From contig NZ_QVFV01000001.1 of NCBI RefSeq assembly GCF_004212215.1, positions 1,188,814-1,252,813 on the forward strand: 64,000 bases of DNA. The letters are read 5' to 3'. Below are positions 54,208-63,028 of the stretch, piece after piece. Both the position numbers and the translations under genes were made by a program. The stretch is from Leptolyngbya iicbica LK. Lineage in GTDB: Bacteria; Cyanobacteriota; Cyanobacteriia; Phormidesmidales; Phormidesmidaceae. Position 1 is the stretch's first letter; the number at the start of each line of letters is the position of its first letter. The notes beneath the pieces are model-generated. The model searched no databases, was not told the DNA's origin, and saw only the letters and a program-made list of their open reading frames with translations.

Positions 54208-54805
54208 CGCCACCGACCTCCAAACCATTCAGTGACAGCCGCCCCGGATGAGTGCGGTTTATTGGGAGCATGTCTGCTTTGCTGTGGAAAACCATTGACC
54301 CAGCTCTACACCCATCGTCAAAACGGTTCAAGCTCAGACCATTAACGTGCCACATTAATTTAGTGATTGAAACTAGAGATTCGCTCAGAAAATCGCCTAG
54401 CCGCCGCGATCGCGCCCTGACTGAACGTACCGAAAAATTCGTTTCACCGATCAAAAAAAATCTTAAATAACCAATTAAATTGAACCCAATCAATTATTAA
54501 TCCAAAGCACAAAAGTCCGGAAATCCAGAAAATACTGCGTAAATAGAAGATTTTCCTCAAGAAAAAAGACGTCTCACTTTGAGGTTTCAGCAGCGCAAAC
54601 CATTGATACAGCGTTTTAGGATTGTCAAGCAAGCAAGGACAGTTATTTTATTGACCTACTTTAGCAAGGAGATTTTCTCCAACCAAGACTACAGAAAACT
54701 TCCTGAAATCTATTCCTCAAAAATCTGGAATTCCTTTTTGAACAGTGATGAATAAACCGTGAGTGAACAACTCATTCATTTGTTTTCACTAGAGGAATGC
54801 CCCCT
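54208..54805 (+). other. Intergenic region before haloperoxidase gene
   Basis: About 600 bases, strongly AT-rich from 54440 on. No gene is credible; a 72-residue plus-strand frame at 54252-54470 has no features. AGAGGA at 54791-54796 is the ribosome binding site of the haloperoxidase. Confidence 0.5.
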
Positions 54806-56665
54806 ATGGAATCACGTCGTACACAAGCTCGAAATATTCGTATCGAAGCGGCTCATGTCGCCTTTAATCGTGCTCCTGTCGTCCATGAATCGAATGGCGA
54901 GGAACTACAGTATCGATTTGGCCCTACAGAAAACAACGCGCCCCCCGAAGATGTGGTGCGCAGCGGTCAGCCTTCACATTTGACCAGCTACACCAAAGGG
55001 TTGCCTCACCGCGAAGACGATGGTCTAATCGCTCACCCCACAGATTTTCAAACGTTTGTGCGGGGCATTGACTCCGGCGATGTCCGCGACTTTCGCGATA
55101 CGCCTCTCGGCCCCCTGCAGCGCAGCGGTGGACAAGTTATTGGGCGTGGGGCACAGCCCGGTCAAGCCATTGACTGGAGTTCCGCATTCACTAAGTCTTG
55201 TGCGGTACGCGATCGCAAAGGCGGTGCCGTACCTGTCCGAGCTTGGGAAAGTCAGGGCGCGGGCAACACCTTTGACCTGGAAGGGCCGGATGCCCAAGCG
55301 GTGACCATGCCCCCCGCGCCCGTCGCCGATAGCCCAGAACTCATTGCCGAAATGGCCGAAGTCTACGAAATGGCCTTGCTGCGAGACGTGCCCTTTGCCA
55401 AGTTTGAGCACGATGGTGATGTGCAAGCGGCGATCGCTCGCCTCAATCAACTGGAATGGTTTAACGGTAGCGAGATCGTTGGTCTGTCGGCGGCGGCTCA
55501 GGCCCGTCGTCGTGGCGCAGTCACCATCGCCAATGCCTTCCGAGGAACAACCTTTGGCGATTGCGTCGGCCCTTACCTATCCCAGTTTTTGTGCGCGGGC
55601 ACGCCTGAGTTGGGCAGCGGTGGCCAAACTGCCGAGAGCGCCACGGCGGGCTTCGTACGTTACGGCGCCATGGTGTTCCAAAACAAGGTGCGCTTTGCCA
55701 CCCCCTACCGGGACTACATGACCACGTGGGAATGGTGGCTTGATGTGCAAAACGGCGCTGACTTGCGCGGCACGGAAACCTATGAAGGCGACTGTGCTAG
55801 CGATCGCTATCGGTTTATTGCCAACCCCCGTGACTTGGCCACCTACGTCCACTATGACGCGCTGTACCAGGCATACCTGAATGCCTGCCTGTCGATGCTG
55901 GCCCTGGGGATTCCGTTTGATCCGGGCATTCCCTTCCAAGGGGCGGACGTGATGGATCGCCAGCAGGGCTTTGCCCACTTTGGTGGCCCGCACATTTTGT
56001 CCCTGGTGACTGAGGTGGCGACCCGTGCGCTGAAGGCCGTACGCTTCCAGAAATTCAACGTGCATCGGCGGTTGCGTCCCGAAGCAGTCGGTGGTCGGCT
56101 GCACCGGATGAAGAATTCTCCCGGCAATCCGACCTTTGCACCGTTTGAGCCGATGTGCGATCGCCTCACCGAGATTGGTTTACTCGAAGCCGTGCGCGGG
56201 CATAACGCTCGCCAAAACACCATCCACGATGGCCGCCAGTGCGACCAAGAGCGGGATACCAGCTACTTGCTGCCCATGGCGTTTCCCGAAGGCTCGCCGA
56301 TGCACCCCGCCTATGGCGCGGGTCATGCCACCGTGGCAGGCGCTTGCGTCACCATTCTCAAAGCCTTCTTTGACCATCGCTATGTGTTGCCGGGGCCGTA
56401 CGTGTATCCGGCACCCTGTGGCACCAAGCTCGAAATTGCGGCAGGCACTCCGGCTTTAACCGTTGAAGGCGAACTGAACAAGCTAGCCTCCAATATCTCC
56501 ATTGGCCGCAACTGGGCCGGGGTTCACTATTGCACCGATTATTCGGAGTCAGTGCGCCTGGGCGAAGCCATCGCGATCGGCATTCTCGAAGAGCAAAAGC
56601 TGACCTACGGCGAAAATTTCTCGATGTCCCTGCCCCGCTTTGATGGCACCACCATCCGCATCTAG
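54806..56665 (+). CDS. Vanadium-dependent haloperoxidase
   Basis: 619 residues from ATG at 54806 (AGAGGA nine bases before). The family oxidises halide with hydrogen peroxide and a vanadate cofactor. Vanadate-site residues: Lys416 and Arg424 in KFNVHRRLRPEA, His500 in HPAYGAGHATVAGACV with Gly506 and His507, Arg568 and His574 (the vanadate-linking His) in GRNWAGVHYCTDYSES. Spacing matches algal bromoperoxidases (Arg eight after Lys). The serine that follows the spacing in algal enzymes is Ala505 here. No signal peptide is obvious. It stands alone, with a terminator after it. Confidence 0.93.
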   Translation: MESRRTQARNIRIEAAHVAFNRAPVVHESNGEELQYRFGPTENNAPPEDVVRSGQPSHLTSYTKGLPHREDDGLIAHPTDFQTFVRGIDSGDVRDFRDTPLGPLQRSGGQVIGRGAQPGQAIDWSSAFTKSCAVRDRKGGAVPVRAWESQGAGNTFDLEGPDAQAVTMPPAPVADSPELIAEMAEVYEMALLRDVPFAKFEHDGDVQAAIARLNQLEWFNGSEIVGLSAAAQARRRGAVTIANAFRGTTFGDCVGPYLSQFLCAGTPELGSGGQTAESATAGFVRYGAMVFQNKVRFATPYRDYMTTWEWWLDVQNGADLRGTETYEGDCASDRYRFIANPRDLATYVHYDALYQAYLNACLSMLALGIPFDPGIPFQGADVMDRQQGFAHFGGPHILSLVTEVATRALKAVRFQKFNVHRRLRPEAVGGRLHRMKNSPGNPTFAPFEPMCDRLTEIGLLEAVRGHNARQNTIHDGRQCDQERDTSYLLPMAFPEGSPMHPAYGAGHATVAGACVTILKAFFDHRYVLPGPYVYPAPCGTKLEIAAGTPALTVEGELNKLASNISIGRNWAGVHYCTDYSESVRLGEAIAIGILEEQKLTYGENFSMSLPRFDGTTIRI

Positions 56666-56873: not shown

Positions 56874-57311
56874 TTAAGAGGCACCGTTCGTATCAGTCGA
56901 ACTCGATTTCAGCGCGTCCATCACTTGCGCGTGCAAGGTGGCAATCTTGGGATAATTATCGACCGCGCGTTGATACCGCACTGCTGCCTCGCTGGCTTCA
57001 TCCGACTGCAGCGGCAGGATGTCATACGCCTCTTCGAGCAAGCCATGAATCACATTCGGCGAGACGGGTTCTTTTGAGGCAATAGATTCATCAATGCGGG
57101 CAATGAACCCTGAGATCGGACGTAGCCAGTCAAACCATTCATCGCTAATGACCAGCTGAAACAGCTCCATTTTGGAAGTGATCGGGCCGTGCACCCGCTC
57201 GTAGCTATCTTGTTCAGCTTCTAGAAGCGCTTTGTGCAGCCTCAACATCAGCGGTCGCAGCGTCTTGAGCTTTTCGTAGGCAGGCACGGAGGTAGAGGAA
57301 GAATCAGTCAT
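56874..57311 (-). CDS. Conserved hypothetical helical protein
   Basis: 145 residues from ATG at 57311 (an upstream ATG at 57344 is in frame but reads an unlikely leader). Predicted all-alpha and soluble: LKTLRPLMLRLHKALLEAEQDSYERVHGPI, then KMELFQLVISDEWFDWLRPISGFIARIDE, then a long acidic/polar end with Ser/Thr. No enzyme motif and no family were recognised. The gene ends convergent to the haloperoxidase, with 200 bases between. Confidence 0.6.
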   Translation of the reverse strand: MTDSSSTSVPAYEKLKTLRPLMLRLHKALLEAEQDSYERVHGPITSKMELFQLVISDEWFDWLRPISGFIARIDESIASKEPVSPNVIHGLLEEAYDILPLQSDEASEAAVRYQRAVDNYPKIATLHAQVMDALKSSSTDTNGAS

Positions 57312-57344
57312 GCAATCAGGCAGGCGATCGACGGTCTGTATCAT

Positions 57345-57718
57345 CTTGTCATATCCTGCCGAGATGATTCAGCCAATTCGTAGTGGGAGAAGGGCCGGAA
57401 AGTAACATTGAATGGACAGTGGAGACAGTCGCAGCAACATAACTAAATATCTCAAATTCAGAACGGTAAAACTGTAAAGCCACGTAAATGTTACAGGAAC
57501 TAGATGAAGTTGCTGTTTATCCTGACTTGTTCATGGGGAAGATTTGGTATATCCGGTGATCAGGCAAGCATAGTATCGACTGCTGAGCAATCTTTAGAAA
57601 CCTCTGCGACTGCGGATCTTTCGCTGAAGATTGCAAATCATCTAGTTGGCTCAACAAATTGTGATTCATCACGTGGGCTTCTATATCACTTCATTTCTAT
57701 CAGCCGAAGGTAATCCTC
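57345..57718 (+). other. Intergenic region before dynamin-like gene
   Basis: 374 bases between divergent genes. A short open frame (57504-57713) is not convincing. GAAGGTAA before 57719 supplies the ribosome binding site of the GTPase. Confidence 0.45.
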
Positions 57719-60322
57719 ATGACTACAAGAGCATCTGCTCAACAAGAGCTTGCTGATCTCCTCTCCCAAATCACTCAGCAAGACATCCGAGCAGGCCACA
57801 TAAGCCATCGACTTATTTTTATCACTGCGCTAGTCACTCTATTGGCGGGTGTCATGTATGCAGACAAAGAAGTTACCGAAGAAGAAAAACAGAAAATCAA
57901 ATCTTCAATTCGGCATTTTATTTTGCCTAGCAGCAATATTGGACAACTCATCAAGCCGATTTTCTCAGGAATTAAGCGCCAGAGGATCTATAAGAATTAC
58001 GGCGTCATTGAGCAATCCTCTGAAAAACTATCAGATCCTGAGAAAATCTTGATACTAGCCTTTTGTTCCAAGATGGCTGCTGCTGATGGTTCTATCGCAC
58101 TTGAAGAAAAGCAGTATATCAGTAAAGCAGCAGAGTTATTCAAATTTTCTGAGCAATATTTAGATCTAATTTTAAATGATTTTAGACGGCAGGATGAGAA
58201 TAAGGAAACTGCCATAGAAATCCTCTCACTTCTAGATCCGCATCATTTCAAAGATTTAGATCCGGCTTTCATGAAAGCCGCTGATTCAATCAGGAATCAG
58301 CTTTCTCCTGTCGCCTCGAGTACTGCTTTAAGAAGCCATTCGGACACGATCAAGTACGAAAAACTGAAACAATTTCAGCAGTCAAAAGCTCAACTCACCA
58401 AAATTGCTAACGAGCTGTTAGAAATCATTCAAAAATGTCATGAGCAAGAAATCCTAAGAAAAGACCTAGAGGATGAAGTGAGGCTAGTTTTAGAAAAAGC
58501 CAAATCTCAAAAGTTCAGGGTGGCAGTTGTTGGTGAATTCAGCCAAGGTAAGTCCACACTTTTGAATGCCTTGTTAGGGGAAGAAGTCCAACCAACAAGA
58601 GCTATTCCCTGTAGTGGAATAGTAACGGTCTTAAAGCATGGTAATCGGCAAAAGGTTATCTGTCGGTATAAAGATGGAGAAGAGGACGAAGTTCCTGTTG
58701 AAAAGTATCAAGAGCTAGCCGCCATCTCCGAAGAAGCTGCACTATATAATATTGCCGAAGAACTGACCAAATCCACGATCAAGGAGATTATTTTTGAGCA
58801 TCCAGGATTAGAGTTATGCCGTCATCAAGTAGAAATTGTTGATTCTCCAGGTCTGAATGAGCATCCCGAAAGGACAACTATTACTCATCAACTACTACAG
58901 AATACTGATGCCGTAATTTTTCTGGCAAACGCCTCTCGTCCTTTTACACAGGGCGAAATGGAACTGTTGAAGTCGTTACGGCAGCAATTACAAGGAAGTG
59001 ATTCTAATCAACCAGTAGAAAACCTTTTCGTGCTGGTTAACTTCATGGATCTACTGCGACGTGATAAAGATAGAGAACATGTCAAACAGCGAGCGAATAA
59101 TTTCTTGCAAGGCGAAAGTCCTATCATCTCAGGGAAGAACAGACTGCATTTCATCTCTGCACAGGCTGCCTTAGACGCCATGCTAGAAAATCGAGATGAT
59201 GAATATTTACAGAGTTTTAGTGAGTTTTCTACTGCTATTCAAATATTTTTAACAGAAGAGCGTGGCTGGTTAACCATGCGTCAAACGATAGCCAGTTTGG
59301 AGAAACTTGTTCAAGAAGCTCGCGCTGGTTTGCAGCAAACTATGGGCTTACTGGAGGGGCAGATTAGTTTCTCTGCATCCGAGCAATGTCAAATAGTAGA
59401 CCAGATGGGAGCAGCTAGTGGACGAGAGGTTAAACTGCGGCTTTTACGTGATGAAATTGTGGATGCGGCTTTAGAAGCTATTAGTGAGGCTTGGGAACAG
59501 TGGCTTGAAGGAATAGAAGAACGAATTTCGGAAAAGAGTACTGACTGGTCATCGACAGAAGAAGAGAAGGAAAAAATTCTTCGAGACTTTGCCAACCAGT
59601 TCTTACATGATCTCTCAGCTGACTTAGATTCTTGGCTGGAGAAAACCGTGAAAGGCGAGATTTTGCTTCCAGAACTCAGTAAATTTGAGCAAGAAATTTC
59701 TAAGAACTTGAACTTGATCTATGAAAACTTAAGATCGATTGACTTGATTTCGGGCTCCAATTTAAGCGAACAGTTTAATCTCTCTTTATCCCATTTTGGG
59801 ATTAATATCAAATTTGATTCCGCGCTTGATCCAAGCTCAATTGATGATGAAGATGGAATCTTTGGATTGTTTAAGGTGATGGGAGGTGGAGGAATTCTAG
59901 GCGGCGGTATTAGTGGAGGTCTTGCATTTTTAGGTGTCAGCTTTTTGCCATTATTGTTGGCTGGACTAGCAACTGGAGCAGTGGTGGGTTGGTTGTTTGG
60001 TTCTGATCCAGGCAAAATTATTTTGCAGATGAAACAAGAGGTCTATGATAAGGGCTTTGAAAAATTTAGTGATTCTGTAGAAGAGCTTGGAATTAAGATT
60101 GGAGAGGGAGCAATTCAGGCCATTGACTCTAGGTACGAAAAAGCGGCCAAGGCAATTCAATGCTCGATTGGTATTCTCAATGAGATTTTGCTCAAACATG
60201 AAAAAATCCATCAAGAAACTGTAAGCTGCCACAATTCCAAGAAGGAATTGATTCAACTAAAAGTGCTGGAACTAGCGAATATTGAGTCTAGTCTTCAGTC
60301 TTTATTGCTTACTGCTAATTGA
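57719..60322 (+). CDS. Dynamin-like GTPase with N-terminal TerB-like domain
   Basis: 867 residues. Residues about 20-160 are TerB-like, with paired acidic loops YADKEVTEEE and AADGSIALEE. A coiled coil follows (about 210-265), then a dynamin GTPase: G1 GEFSQGKST (about 272-280), G3 EIVDSPGLNEH (about 372-382) and a weak G4 VNFMDLL (about 440). A long helical middle follows. Near residues 715-765 is a glycine/hydrophobic stretch (GGGGILGGG... FLPLLLAGLATGAVVGWLF) that could insert into membrane, as in bacterial dynamins. The C terminus is helical. The partner gene starts 52 bases later. Confidence 0.88.
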   Translation: MTTRASAQQELADLLSQITQQDIRAGHISHRLIFITALVTLLAGVMYADKEVTEEEKQKIKSSIRHFILPSSNIGQLIKPIFSGIKRQRIYKNYGVIEQSSEKLSDPEKILILAFCSKMAAADGSIALEEKQYISKAAELFKFSEQYLDLILNDFRRQDENKETAIEILSLLDPHHFKDLDPAFMKAADSIRNQLSPVASSTALRSHSDTIKYEKLKQFQQSKAQLTKIANELLEIIQKCHEQEILRKDLEDEVRLVLEKAKSQKFRVAVVGEFSQGKSTLLNALLGEEVQPTRAIPCSGIVTVLKHGNRQKVICRYKDGEEDEVPVEKYQELAAISEEAALYNIAEELTKSTIKEIIFEHPGLELCRHQVEIVDSPGLNEHPERTTITHQLLQNTDAVIFLANASRPFTQGEMELLKSLRQQLQGSDSNQPVENLFVLVNFMDLLRRDKDREHVKQRANNFLQGESPIISGKNRLHFISAQAALDAMLENRDDEYLQSFSEFSTAIQIFLTEERGWLTMRQTIASLEKLVQEARAGLQQTMGLLEGQISFSASEQCQIVDQMGAASGREVKLRLLRDEIVDAALEAISEAWEQWLEGIEERISEKSTDWSSTEEEKEKILRDFANQFLHDLSADLDSWLEKTVKGEILLPELSKFEQEISKNLNLIYENLRSIDLISGSNLSEQFNLSLSHFGINIKFDSALDPSSIDDEDGIFGLFKVMGGGGILGGGISGGLAFLGVSFLPLLLAGLATGAVVGWLFGSDPGKIILQMKQEVYDKGFEKFSDSVEELGIKIGEGAIQAIDSRYEKAAKAIQCSIGILNEILLKHEKIHQETVSCHNSKKELIQLKVLELANIESSLQSLLLTAN

Positions 60323-60373
60323 TAATTGAGTGTGCTGTTTGGGCTGAAAATTATTATCTGGAATGAATTTCTG

Positions 60374-61711
60374 ATGCTGTATCAATTTTCTCCTCTCATC
60401 CAAGCTGGAATAGAAGCTGGAAAATACGTACCAGTATTTTCGGAAACCGGTATTCCCCTTAGTATGGTTCGCCATGCTGCTGGCCCCCATGGCGGACAGT
60501 TTGCTGCTCACGCAATAGGTTTGGCTAGTAATAATGCCGGTATGGCAGCAATGGGGCTAAATCCTTTAACTGCTGCTCCACAACTGGCCATGAGCGCTGG
60601 GCAGCTTTATCAAGGACAAATGACCTTGAATGCGGTCAAGGCTCTTTCTACATCAGTGGCAACGTTGCAGGCGACAACCGCTGTCATTGGCGTTGGAGTT
60701 GCAGTGACAGGTGCGCTTGTCGCCGTTAACCTCTGGCAAACTCTCAAGATCCGGAAAGACGTTAAGCAGATGAGGTTAGAGGTACAAGAAGGCTTTCTGA
60801 ATCTTCATGAAGCCCTGGCAGACCAGGGAGAAGAGCTTCTCCAACACATTGATCTGGTGGCAAAAGATGTTGAGTTTAGAGCCCATCGTACGATTCTTGT
60901 ACAAGCCTACGGGAAGTTCAACAAGGCTTTAAATCGATTGCAGACGGCTTCAACCCTAAAAGACATAGGCAGACGGAACGACGAAATCACAGCGGCCAGA
61001 GACATGCTCTTTGATGCGCTGGCCGACTACGACAACCATCAGTTAATGGAGGTAATGGAGAGCATCTCTCCACCCGCATATCTTCGTCGTCGCGAGTGTG
61101 TTTGGGCAATTGAGCAGGCCATTGCGATGACGTATCAAATGCAAGGCGAGTTTTCGGCAGTGAGCGATCGCCTTGTAGCTCTGGACAAAGCGATCCGCCA
61201 TGATGCGGTGAAGGTTGTTTCTGATATAGAAGAGCCCGAAGAGCTTGACTTCTTTTTTCCTGAAATCTTGCGTATTCATAATCATGACTTGGCTGCAATT
61301 AATGCCTGGCAAGCACATGCAGACTGGTATCAGAGTCTTGACAAGAAAGATTTGCAACAGCTTCAAGAGTTGCCTATTATTCAACCAGACGCGGAAGCTG
61401 GTGTTGCTTTGGACGCTGATCTGGAAAAGCCACCTGAGTATACCTATTACGAAACTGCGCAAGAGCAGTCTCATGCCAGGGCAATTCGAGATAGCTTGCT
61501 GATTTTGATGGACTCTAATACCAGGGCGGAATCTCAAGAGTACGTGGCTGAGAGAGCTATTCAGGAGGGCTTAAACAGCCTGACTGAGAAAAACTTAGCC
61601 GTAGCAACTCCCCTGACTATTGCTAATTTGGAATATTACTTTATTTGCCGTGATGAATCTTTCGAGGAAGAAGCCGAGGAAGCCGAAGCTCTAGAGACTT
61701 CAAACCACTAA
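60374..61711 (+). CDS. Partner protein of the dynamin-like GTPase (hypothetical)
   Basis: 445 residues from ATG at 60374; a TTG at 60326 and earlier codons are in frame, but GGAA precedes the ATG. The N-terminal half is small-residue-rich (GMAAMGLNPLTAAPQLAM), then a membrane helix (TTAVIGVGVAVTGALVAVNLW, in part) followed by a charged coiled coil (KIRKDVKQMRLEVQEGF, NLHEALADQGEELL). The rest is helical and acidic, ending in a Glu-rich tail. No family recognised. The pairing with a dynamin suggests it anchors or loads the GTPase at membranes. Confidence 0.75.
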   Translation: MLYQFSPLIQAGIEAGKYVPVFSETGIPLSMVRHAAGPHGGQFAAHAIGLASNNAGMAAMGLNPLTAAPQLAMSAGQLYQGQMTLNAVKALSTSVATLQATTAVIGVGVAVTGALVAVNLWQTLKIRKDVKQMRLEVQEGFLNLHEALADQGEELLQHIDLVAKDVEFRAHRTILVQAYGKFNKALNRLQTASTLKDIGRRNDEITAARDMLFDALADYDNHQLMEVMESISPPAYLRRRECVWAIEQAIAMTYQMQGEFSAVSDRLVALDKAIRHDAVKVVSDIEEPEELDFFFPEILRIHNHDLAAINAWQAHADWYQSLDKKDLQQLQELPIIQPDAEAGVALDADLEKPPEYTYYETAQEQSHARAIRDSLLILMDSNTRAESQEYVAERAIQEGLNSLTEKNLAVATPLTIANLEYYFICRDESFEEEAEEAEALETSNH

Positions 61712-61933
61712 AGGGGAACACAGAAATATTCAAAAAGATCTTCGACTTAAACGGCGTCTGTTGCCCCCCGCCACTCATAACTGAGTCATAGTAGGCGATC
61801 ACAATTGGGCAGACGATATCTTCCCAAACGCCACGGAGCTAAAAATCTTTAATCGGGTCGATTGCTACTACGAGCATTCCCCAGACTCCAATTCTGAGTC
61901 GATAAGATAGCCTTTAACTCCTCTTAGCCAGCT

Positions 61934-62167
61934 ATGACAACCTTCACCGTTTCTCTGCCCGCAGCCCTAACCGCCTACTTACAAGCCCGCATCGACTCTG
62001 GGGAATTCAACACTGCTGACGACTATATCCAGGCACTGATTCAACAAGACAAAGCTCGCCAAGAACATCTGGAACCGCTCCTGCTAGAAGGGCTTGACTC
62101 CGGTGAGGCAACACCCATGACTGCCGCTAATTGGGACACTATTCGCGCCGCCGTTCGCCACAATTAA
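61934..62167 (+). CDS. ParD-family antitoxin without an adjacent ParE toxin
   Basis: 77 residues. The N-terminal ribbon-helix-helix reads TTFTVSLPAALTAYLQARIDSG, then EFNTADDYIQALIQQDKARQEHLEPLLLEGLDSGEATPMTAANWDTIR, the ParD tail that wraps the toxin. Normally parE follows at once; here only 186 non-coding bases follow before the MerR-like gene, and no ParE-like frame was found on either side. It may be an orphan antitoxin or relic, or work with a distant toxin. Confidence 0.85.
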   Translation: MTTFTVSLPAALTAYLQARIDSGEFNTADDYIQALIQQDKARQEHLEPLLLEGLDSGEATPMTAANWDTIRAAVRHN

Positions 62168-62205
62168 GCTGACCATGCCCAGCATAGTAGAAGTTTTATA
62201 AACTC

Positions 62206-62224
62206 TCTGGTCTTGGCGACCAGA
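62206..62224 (+). terminator. Weak hairpin after parD-like gene
   Basis: TCTGGTC-TTGGC-GACCAGA, a perfect 7-bp stem with ATCTTT after it. Possible terminator for the antitoxin gene. Confidence 0.4.
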
Positions 62225-62250
62225 ATCTTTCCGCTGCTACATCTAAGCCA

Positions 62251-62285
62251 TGATTGGGAATCGGCAGTTTGCCGATTCCCAATCA
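62251..62285. repeat. Perfect 16-bp hairpin without T-run
   Basis: TGATTGGGAATCGGCA (62251-62266), loop GTT, TGCCGATTCCCAATCA (62270-62285). It lies 69 bases before the MerR-like gene. The absence of a T-run makes a simple terminator less likely; a REP-like element or operator is possible. Confidence 0.6.
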
Positions 62286-62353
62286 CAAGGCAACAAATAT
62301 TTCATGCAAGATTGTCATTGACATTGCTTGTTGTCACTGACTAGAATGGCGGC

Positions 62354-63028
62354 ATGGATACGTTGCAACAATTAGCGCAGCAGCAGCCAGAGTTCGCCTT
62401 AGATCGCTTCGTTGAAGTGGTCAATCAGCTTCTGCCCCAGTTTTTGCCGGAAGCGGTGGGCAGTCGGGGTCAAGAATCGGTGAATCCCCGGCTGGTGCGG
62501 CACTACACCACCCAAAGGTTGCTCGACAAACCGCTCAAACAAGGGCGGGAAGTGCGGTATACCTATCGGCATCTACTGCAGTTGCTGGTGCTGCGTCGCC
62601 TGCTGGCGGAGGGGTATAGCGTGAGTTCGATGCATCAACTCATCGGCGGCCAGCCCAACGCTACCTTGGAGAATCTTCTGCAAGGGGGCGCACAGCTCAC
62701 CGTCGAAACCGCCAACCCCGCCCTCGCCTTTTTGGCGCAGGTCCGCGATCGCTCAGCGCCACCAACGGCCCAACGTGCGGCCCCAGCTCCCGCCCCTGCG
62801 GCTAATTCCCGTGCCGCGGCGAAAAGTCGCCCTCAATCGTTTGGGGCCGCATCACCCGCACCCCCCTCAACCTCCAACTGGACCCGTCTCGAACTTTTAG
62901 ACGGACTGGAGTTACACGTCCGTGACACCTTTGCCTTGCCCGCTTCTGCCCACGAACGCGAACGTCTACTGCAACTGATTGCCCAATCTCTCACTCAACT
63001 CAACTCATCCCGGAGACACCCACCATGA
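62354..63028 (+). CDS. MerR-like transcription regulator
   Basis: 224 residues. A winged helix of MerR type spans residues about 35-95: NPRLVRHYTTQRLLDKPLKQGREVRYTYRHLLQLLVLRRLLAEGYSVSSMHQLI. An Ala/Pro-rich linker follows (residues about 135-175), and a C-terminal helix with ELLDGLELHVRDTFALPASAHERERLLQLI. The stop overlaps the start of the VWA gene by 4 bases (ATGA), so both are made together. The regulator may control its own operon; ligand unknown. Confidence 0.82.
   Translation: MDTLQQLAQQQPEFALDRFVEVVNQLLPQFLPEAVGSRGQESVNPRLVRHYTTQRLLDKPLKQGREVRYTYRHLLQLLVLRRLLAEGYSVSSMHQLIGGQPNATLENLLQGGAQLTVETANPALAFLAQVRDRSAPPTAQRAAPAPAPAANSRAAAKSRPQSFGAASPAPPSTSNWTRLELLDGLELHVRDTFALPASAHERERLLQLIAQSLTQLNSSRRHPP

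Follow-up and report, generated by a model that had tools for sequence, protein, structure and literature searches.

What would a dynamin-family GTPase with a TerB-like domain be doing beside a membrane protein that no curated family recognises? The question is posed by two neighbouring genes of Leptolyngbya iicbica LK, P0001 and P0002, which lie in the 64-kb stretch analysed here (the window, meaning the whole of that stretch; L and G followed by three digits denote loci and genomes, respectively). The answer preferred here, which we regard as evenly poised, is that the pair is an accessory, exchangeable module of an immune type, in which a dynamin-family protein is joined with a membrane effector of the JukB superfamily that the dynamin stalk would recruit or gate. 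The pairing of the two genes, the existence of partners consisting of the stalk only, the remote homology of P0002 to JukB and the exchange of a NACHT gene for the pair at this site are computed results; the last three, together with a second type of dynamin-JukB-like operon, go beyond a preliminary description of the locus made from its sequence. Both open reading frames (ORFs) stand at the coordinates given in that description and are built as follows.

57719 to 60322, plus strand: P0001, 867 aa, a TerB-like domain, a dynamin GTPase of the BDLP (bacterial dynamin-like protein)/mitofusin type and a helical stalk with a Gly-rich hydrophobic paddle
57827 to 58159, plus strand: TerB-like domain of P0001 (aa 37-147; Pfam TerB, E 1.4e-13)
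58520 to 58984, plus strand: Dynamin_N GTPase domain of P0001 (aa 268-422; Pfam Dynamin_N, E 3.1e-27; P-loop GEFSQGKS)
59195 to 60313, plus strand: stalk region of P0001 (aa 493-865), the counterpart of the entire headless partners described below (hhalign probability 99.7, E 1.8e-25)
59891 to 60001, plus strand: Gly-rich hydrophobic paddle of P0001 (aa 725-761; from hydropathy)
60374 to 61711, plus strand: P0002, 445 aa, an N-terminal part remotely like the JukB superfamily and a family-specific helical C-terminal part
60665 to 60739, plus strand: hydrophobic segment of P0002 (aa 98-122), the sole such segment of the protein and a likely membrane helix by prediction

The association of the two genes is clearly not accidental. 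Among the 291 cyanobacterial genomes searched, P0002 is present in 26 and P0001 homologues at E < 1e-90 in 16; 15 of these 16 strong homologues adjoin a P0002 homologue, and in the sixteenth (G030) both genes are cut off by contig ends. The P0002-type proteins longer than 330 aa number 33; of these, L108 belongs to a second class of operon (class II, see below) and three at contig ends (L041, L076, L088) were set aside, while shorter P0002 remnants, such as L097, L103, L104 and L107, fall outside the count, the L103 remnant having a dynamin C-terminal fragment nearby. All 29 judgeable class I loci that are left have a dynamin-type neighbour, which is full-length in 18 cases and headless, that is, reduced to the stalk, in 11, and is split into two ORFs in two of the former (L082, L085) and one of the latter (L095). 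The two-gene unit recognised in the preliminary description thus recurs wherever it can be judged, although in 11 of the 29 loci the partner is GTPase-less, and the dynamin-type gene and P0002 form a real unit with a pairing far above chance. The arrangement is tandem in the clade of the window (the window, L039, L040 and L042) and in G313, and head-to-head in the remaining 14 full pairs as well as in all 11 headless ones; an operon is therefore not universal.

The unit is accessory and its presence in cyanobacteria is patchy. Among 39 relatives of the window genome, the same three genomes bear both P0001 and P0002, a further P0002 match (G319, E 5e-4) having been set aside as weak, and neither gene was found in the five congeners (0/5). 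There is no third conserved gene beside the class I pairs, the largest cluster of neighbours being found at 6 of 26 loci; by eye this cluster is serine/threonine-kinase-like, and its recurrence partly reflects shared synteny. P0003 (56874-57344, minus strand) was considered as a third component and rejected, as it occurs in 13/13 relatives searched, whether they have the pair or not; at the pair loci of other genera no P0003 homologue was found.

The headless partners, proteins of approximately 340-406 aa with neither a TerB nor a GTPase domain, provide a clue as to which part of the dynamin matters to P0002.

L086, L087, L089, L092-L095 and L100-L102: headless partners, divergent to the P0002 homologues

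These ten were aligned and match aa 493-865 of P0001, whereas the eleventh, L099, was assigned by a BLAST match (E 3e-8). The hydrophobic paddle segment is absent in nine of the ten headless partners tested, L099 being the one that has it, and the L092 protein carries no annotation from Pfam, NCBIfam or PADLOC, the collections scanned. A headless profile run over the 291 genomes retrieved ten near-complete genes (nine intact, one split), every one of which adjoins a P0002 homologue; in addition, G288 holds a decayed headless pair and G195 a 98-aa headless fragment alone, with no P0002 seen, and in G099, G131 and G253 headless pairs are present with no strong full-length class I dynamin. Since these partners retain the stalk without the GTPase domain, P0002 probably works with the stalk, and the simplest reading is that the stalk is required and the GTPase is not. 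Two trees bear on a repeated loss of the GTPase head. In the stalk tree, nine headless proteins form a single clade (100/100), outside which L099 falls, and all ten together give p 0.29 in the approximately unbiased (AU) test; in the P0002 tree, the rows belonging to headless pairs are scattered (4 changes), a single clade being only just rejected (AU p 0.046). The stalk tree would thus allow a single origin of nine of the ten headless proteins, while the P0002 tree spreads them. As a separate observation, the headless pair at L087 (3197-6042) adjoins ORFs that by eye resemble Cas6, Cas4, Cas1 and Cas2.

The second line of evidence concerns the identity of P0002. On its own, the protein matches no Pfam, NCBIfam or PADLOC family better than E 0.3, in agreement with its preliminary designation as unrecognised, and among the PHROG families it has one weak match, to a PHROG without known function (E 0.013). 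Profile-profile comparison with hhalign, by contrast, aligns 32 class I proteins (L108 left out) with 25 proteins of the JukB superfamily at a probability of 97.8 (E 8.2e-13, 265 columns), and with just the four most JukB-like proteins at 86.4 (E 4.6e-6), whereas the controls reached at most 0.7 for reversed decoys, 0.2 for the class II middle protein and 0.4 for dynamins. A six-sequence alignment headed by P0002 gives a probability of 95.2 against the JukB-superfamily profile (A6), whose best match among all PDB sequences is the solved JukB 9jht (E 0.0016). The canonical JukA-JukB pair of a Pseudomonas luteola plasmid (JukB E 4e-142, JukA E 2e-28) served as a yardstick, and because even this JukB aligns to 9jht with an E no better than 0.24, the superfamily must be very divergent. 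P0002 therefore appears to belong, remotely, to the JukB superfamily, which is best supported for its N-terminal part and hydrophobic segment; the homology is graded remote because, at the sequence level, P0002 alone has no match to a JukB model and the P0002 profile that includes L108 (A3) has none to 9jht.

The A3 profile also finds 11 remote P0002 relatives in other loci, L108 included, of which ten lie in operons of class II, where a dynamin, a middle protein of 175-313 aa and the P0002-like gene follow each other in tandem.

L108, L174-L181 and L183: class II operons (dynamin / middle protein / JukB-like)

At L174 and L179 the class II dynamin is broken into two ORFs, and the eleventh relative (G119, L182) is a fragmentary P0002-like gene with no dynamin seen. 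Class II holds the more typical JukB-like proteins, and the two P0002-like ones that were scanned match PADLOC JukB (E 5e-16 and 2.8e-11). One operon resides on the conjugative Nostoc plasmid NZ_CP040300 beside DUF499, DUF1156 and ArdA genes, and when three class II neighbours, picked by eye from 60 usable ones, were scanned with PADLOC, HmaC (E 1e-97) was matched at this plasmid locus and HmaA (E 8e-202) at another, so that Hma defence genes adjoin 2 of the 10 loci. Cyanobacteria also have stand-alone JukB-like genes (L218-L231), two of which, L227 and L229, have a conserved gene for a 275-277 aa protein just upstream.

Finally, the chromosomal site itself appears to be an exchangeable one.

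57398 to 61792, no strand assigned: exchanged slot, at both edges of which the DNA homology with the congener G295 ends, and which in G295 holds a NACHT-HEAT gene
61815 to 61892, plus strand: NACHT-HEAT remnant, 26 codons of the C-terminus (tblastn against the whole window, 69% identity, E 2.7e-6)

G295 shares both flanks of the site with the window (positions 56901-57397 and 61793-62500 of the window; 78-79% identity), but at this orthologous position a single gene (L259 5223-8408) stands in place of the 4.4 kb holding the pair. It codes for a 1061-aa protein in which a NACHT domain (E 1e-10) and HEAT repeats (E 9.5e-25) are recognised and whose PADLOC matches, to mad8 (E 1.8e-7) and HEAT-ARM_XIII (E 1e-6), are weak. 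NACHT proteins act as bacterial immune proteins. As 26 C-terminal codons persist directly behind P0002, the NACHT gene probably occupied the site before the pair. Another congener (G294, L262) has the same flank gene followed by a different gene, with neither the pair nor NACHT-HEAT, and in three further congeners the P0003 orthologue stands in other surroundings. The GC content at third codon positions is 0.37 and 0.45 in the pair versus 0.62-0.65 in four neighbouring genes. The swap, the scar, the variable slot and the low third-position GC all fit an exchangeable accessory locus. Elsewhere in the window, the ORF at 54797-56665 resembles by eye a vanadium-haloperoxidase/PAP2-type enzyme and has no match in the G294 stretch compared, and a small ORF beside the pair (61934-62167), antitoxin-like by eye, is conserved in G295 and lies outside the exchanged slot.

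The TerB and dynamin domains previously ascribed to the GTPase are upheld by the Pfam matches to TerB and Dynamin_N, and a Gly-rich hydrophobic stretch is present at aa 725-761. All 17 aligned P0001 homologues keep the GKS (G1), D-[ST]-P-G (G3) and N-x-x-D (G4-like) motifs, while the TerB part is absent from three of the 17, so TerB does not define the module. The best solved relative is the Nostoc BDLP 2j68 (phmmer E 2.2e-25, aa 216-550). As regards the dynamin fold, the sequence evidence from Dynamin_N is strong and Foldseek ranks BDLP 2j69 first (E 2.9e-11, 741 columns, template modelling scores 0.28/0.34), although the AlphaFold model itself is poor, with a predicted local distance difference test score (pLDDT) of 54. 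Stand-alone TerB-like proteins of 198 aa that are related to the P0001 N-terminus occur at L109-L111 in a conserved, unrelated neighbourhood; the possibility that these genes represent a split dynamin was rejected, their neighbours being crotonase-like and deaminase-like by eye, without a GTPase.

For P0002, the best start is the ATG at 60374, located 51 nt past the P0001 stop, because the nearest relative (L039, 77% identical) starts at the same residue. Of the features attributed to it earlier, the single hydrophobic segment stands and at least one such segment is found in 29 of 32 homologues, the coiled coil is reduced to a weak match of family profile positions 120-166 to the UspA1 coiled coil (E 0.002), and the Glu-rich tail shows no conservation across the family. 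The structure model is poor (pLDDT 53) and gave no fold match (best Foldseek E 0.58). A heterotypic dynamin pair of the Cj-DLP1/2 kind was likewise considered and rejected, as the P0002 family is unrelated to dynamins (hhalign probability 0.4).

How could the two proteins act together? In the Juk (Jumbo phage killer) system, JukA is described as detecting early phage proteins at the entry vesicle, to which it recruits JukB, and JukB as forming tetrameric pores there (PMC13282480, available sections). By analogy, the dynamin would take the place of JukA, recognise a state of the membrane and deliver P0002. P0001 might bind or sense a disturbed or foreign membrane and self-assemble via its stalk, and TerB, where present, might serve as an input domain; the stalk would bind and concentrate P0002, whose hydrophobic N-terminal segment would then insert and oligomerise and so permeabilise the target membrane, either that of the host itself or that of a phage entry compartment. 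The GTPase may tune the assembly, and the headless forms would manage without it. Stalk binding, membrane insertion, pore formation and a phage trigger are what we infer here. P0001 and P0003 had no JukA match in the PADLOC scan, and of the two JukA models, PDLC04112 matched in none of 21 pair-bearing genomes and PDLC04111 weakly in 20 of the 21 (E 5.5e-4 to 3.5e-7; 1.1e-20 in G243), the matching proteins (229-297 aa, mostly 277-297) being encoded far from the pair and none adjoining it. In a wider and more tentative form, to which we give somewhat less than even credence, the loci would represent an undescribed cyanobacterial immune system in which dynamins rather than JukA serve as the sensors or assemblers for pore effectors of the JukB superfamily, which exists in two-gene TerB-dynamin, GTPase-less headless and three-gene forms, and which is swapped at the same site with NACHT genes (NLR-like, resembling nucleotide-binding leucine-rich repeat receptors).

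Several results weigh against an immune-type module. The preliminary description had left the choice between defence and membrane remodelling open; defence is tentatively favoured here, and no clear defence-island signal is seen for the class I loci: across the 125 nearest neighbours at 25 loci (out of 258 usable ones up to 6 kb away), no PADLOC family among the 25 of 101 listed occurs in more than four neighbours, and the top families are the kinase-type PD-T4-6 models. P0002 was not found in plasmid, phage and viral-contig collections at the sensitivity used, and other JukB-like genes have a dynamin neighbour at 0 of the 14 loci (of approximately 17 such loci). With regard to the homology, P0002 alone has no match to the PADLOC JukB models, the class I sequence-profile search leaves class II unseparated from reversed decoys, just 3 of 27 A3 members, presumably including the class II L108, are matched by a JukB model, the A3 profile has no match to 9jht at E<=1, and the genome of the window yields no match to the JukB model. 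Membrane maintenance is a rather unlikely alternative, in which the dynamin would repair or fuse stressed (thylakoid or plasma) membranes like DynA or SynDLP, and P0002 would be an anchor or regulator with no part in immunity. The nearest solved relative is indeed the Nostoc BDLP, stabilisation or repair of membranes has been proposed for SynDLP and DynA (PMC10104851 and PMC8844932, in the text available), and the class I loci are chromosomal with varied and largely ordinary neighbours. A maintenance function is, however, at odds with the patchy presence (26/291 genomes, 0/5 congeners), the replaced NACHT gene and the remote homology of P0002 to JukB, as well as with the occurrence of decayed copies and the survival of pairs that lack a GTPase domain.

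The headless pairs bear on the remaining alternatives as well. P0002 could be a membrane-damaging toxin that a bound stalk keeps inactive and that is freed by a conformational change or the destruction of the dynamin, the headless proteins being plain neutralisers; this improbable scheme would explain why soluble, GTPase-less stalk proteins remain beside P0002 at 11 of 29 loci and why a partner is retained at every judgeable locus, but truncated, possibly inert P0002 remnants persist without an intact partner, for example L097 and L104. A signalling pair in the manner of RdcA-RdcB, in which the dynamin-like GTPase would be soluble and, jointly with its partner, regulate a third protein in the membrane, has its precedent in E. 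coli, where RdcA/RdcB (CrfC/YjdA with YjcZ) are reported as a dynamin-like GTPase and an unrelated partner from one operon (PMC6510439, accessible part). It is nevertheless very improbable here, given that the class I pairs have no conserved third gene, that P0002 has a hydrophobic segment of its own, and that GTP hydrolysis, which is essential for RdcA action, cannot be general in these loci because headless pairs exist. RdcA/RdcB differs further in its soluble partner, its cyclic di-GMP signalling and the lack of TerB and JukB-like parts. Least credible of all is an affiliation with Eleos (LeoA/LeoBC), as a branch of that defence system, suggested by the PADLOC matches of P0001 to LeoA (E 4.6e-22) and LeoBC (E 1.1e-12); common to both is a dynamin-like GTPase within a small unit, which for Eleos is classed under defence; the identity of the partner largely refutes it, as Eleos has two dynamins whereas here a single one is combined with a JukB-like protein unrelated to dynamins, and the Leo matches reflect general dynamin similarity.

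With respect to other known systems, the immune-type module proposed here resembles Juk in being a small pair with a membrane effector, P0002 and class II sharing remotely the JukB N-terminal region and hydrophobic segment, but its partner is a dynamin or dynamin stalk and not JukA, and the C-terminal part of P0002 is different and longer. Nostoc BDLP1 and the cyanobacterial BDLP clades (KGK, HSR1, chaperone, Tandem A/B) belong to the same dynamin superfamily and include the best solved relative, whereas P0001 carries TerB and is paired with a protein that is no dynamin; the genomic contexts described in the available text of PMC5827413 are the KGK, HSR1, chaperone and tandem ones, and the P0001-P0002 pair is not among them there. 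TerB occurs nowhere in the available portions of PMC9950537 and PMC10104851. The DynA of B. subtilis is a bacterial dynamin with an anti-phage effect late in infection (PMC8844932), which in contrast has no JukB-like partner and delays lysis rather than attacking a phage stage. In line with the earlier statement that the pair has no standard name, no published account of a dynamin-P0002 pair was found in the literature searched, including the accessible text of PMC6104087, PMC12571901 and PMC12595487, although the original Juk article, which lay outside that search, could mention a dynamin-linked JukB; nor was any paper found there in which JukA occurs together with a dynamin.

If the immune-type reading is true, it would bring together two strands of membrane-based immunity, the dynamins of bacteria, for which an anti-phage role has been described chiefly in DynA and Eleos, and the JukB pore effectors, which attack the jumbo-phage membrane compartment, and dynamins would gain a direct killing partner. 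The headless form would then imply that a dynamin stalk suffices to work the effector without GTP hydrolysis, with the natural GTPase-less mutants separating the function of the stalk from that of hydrolysis, and NLR-like and dynamin-based modules would replace one another at a single site. Even if the function differs, there is now a superfamily for P0002, and the headless dynamins amount to a naturally repeated experiment on a motorless stalk.

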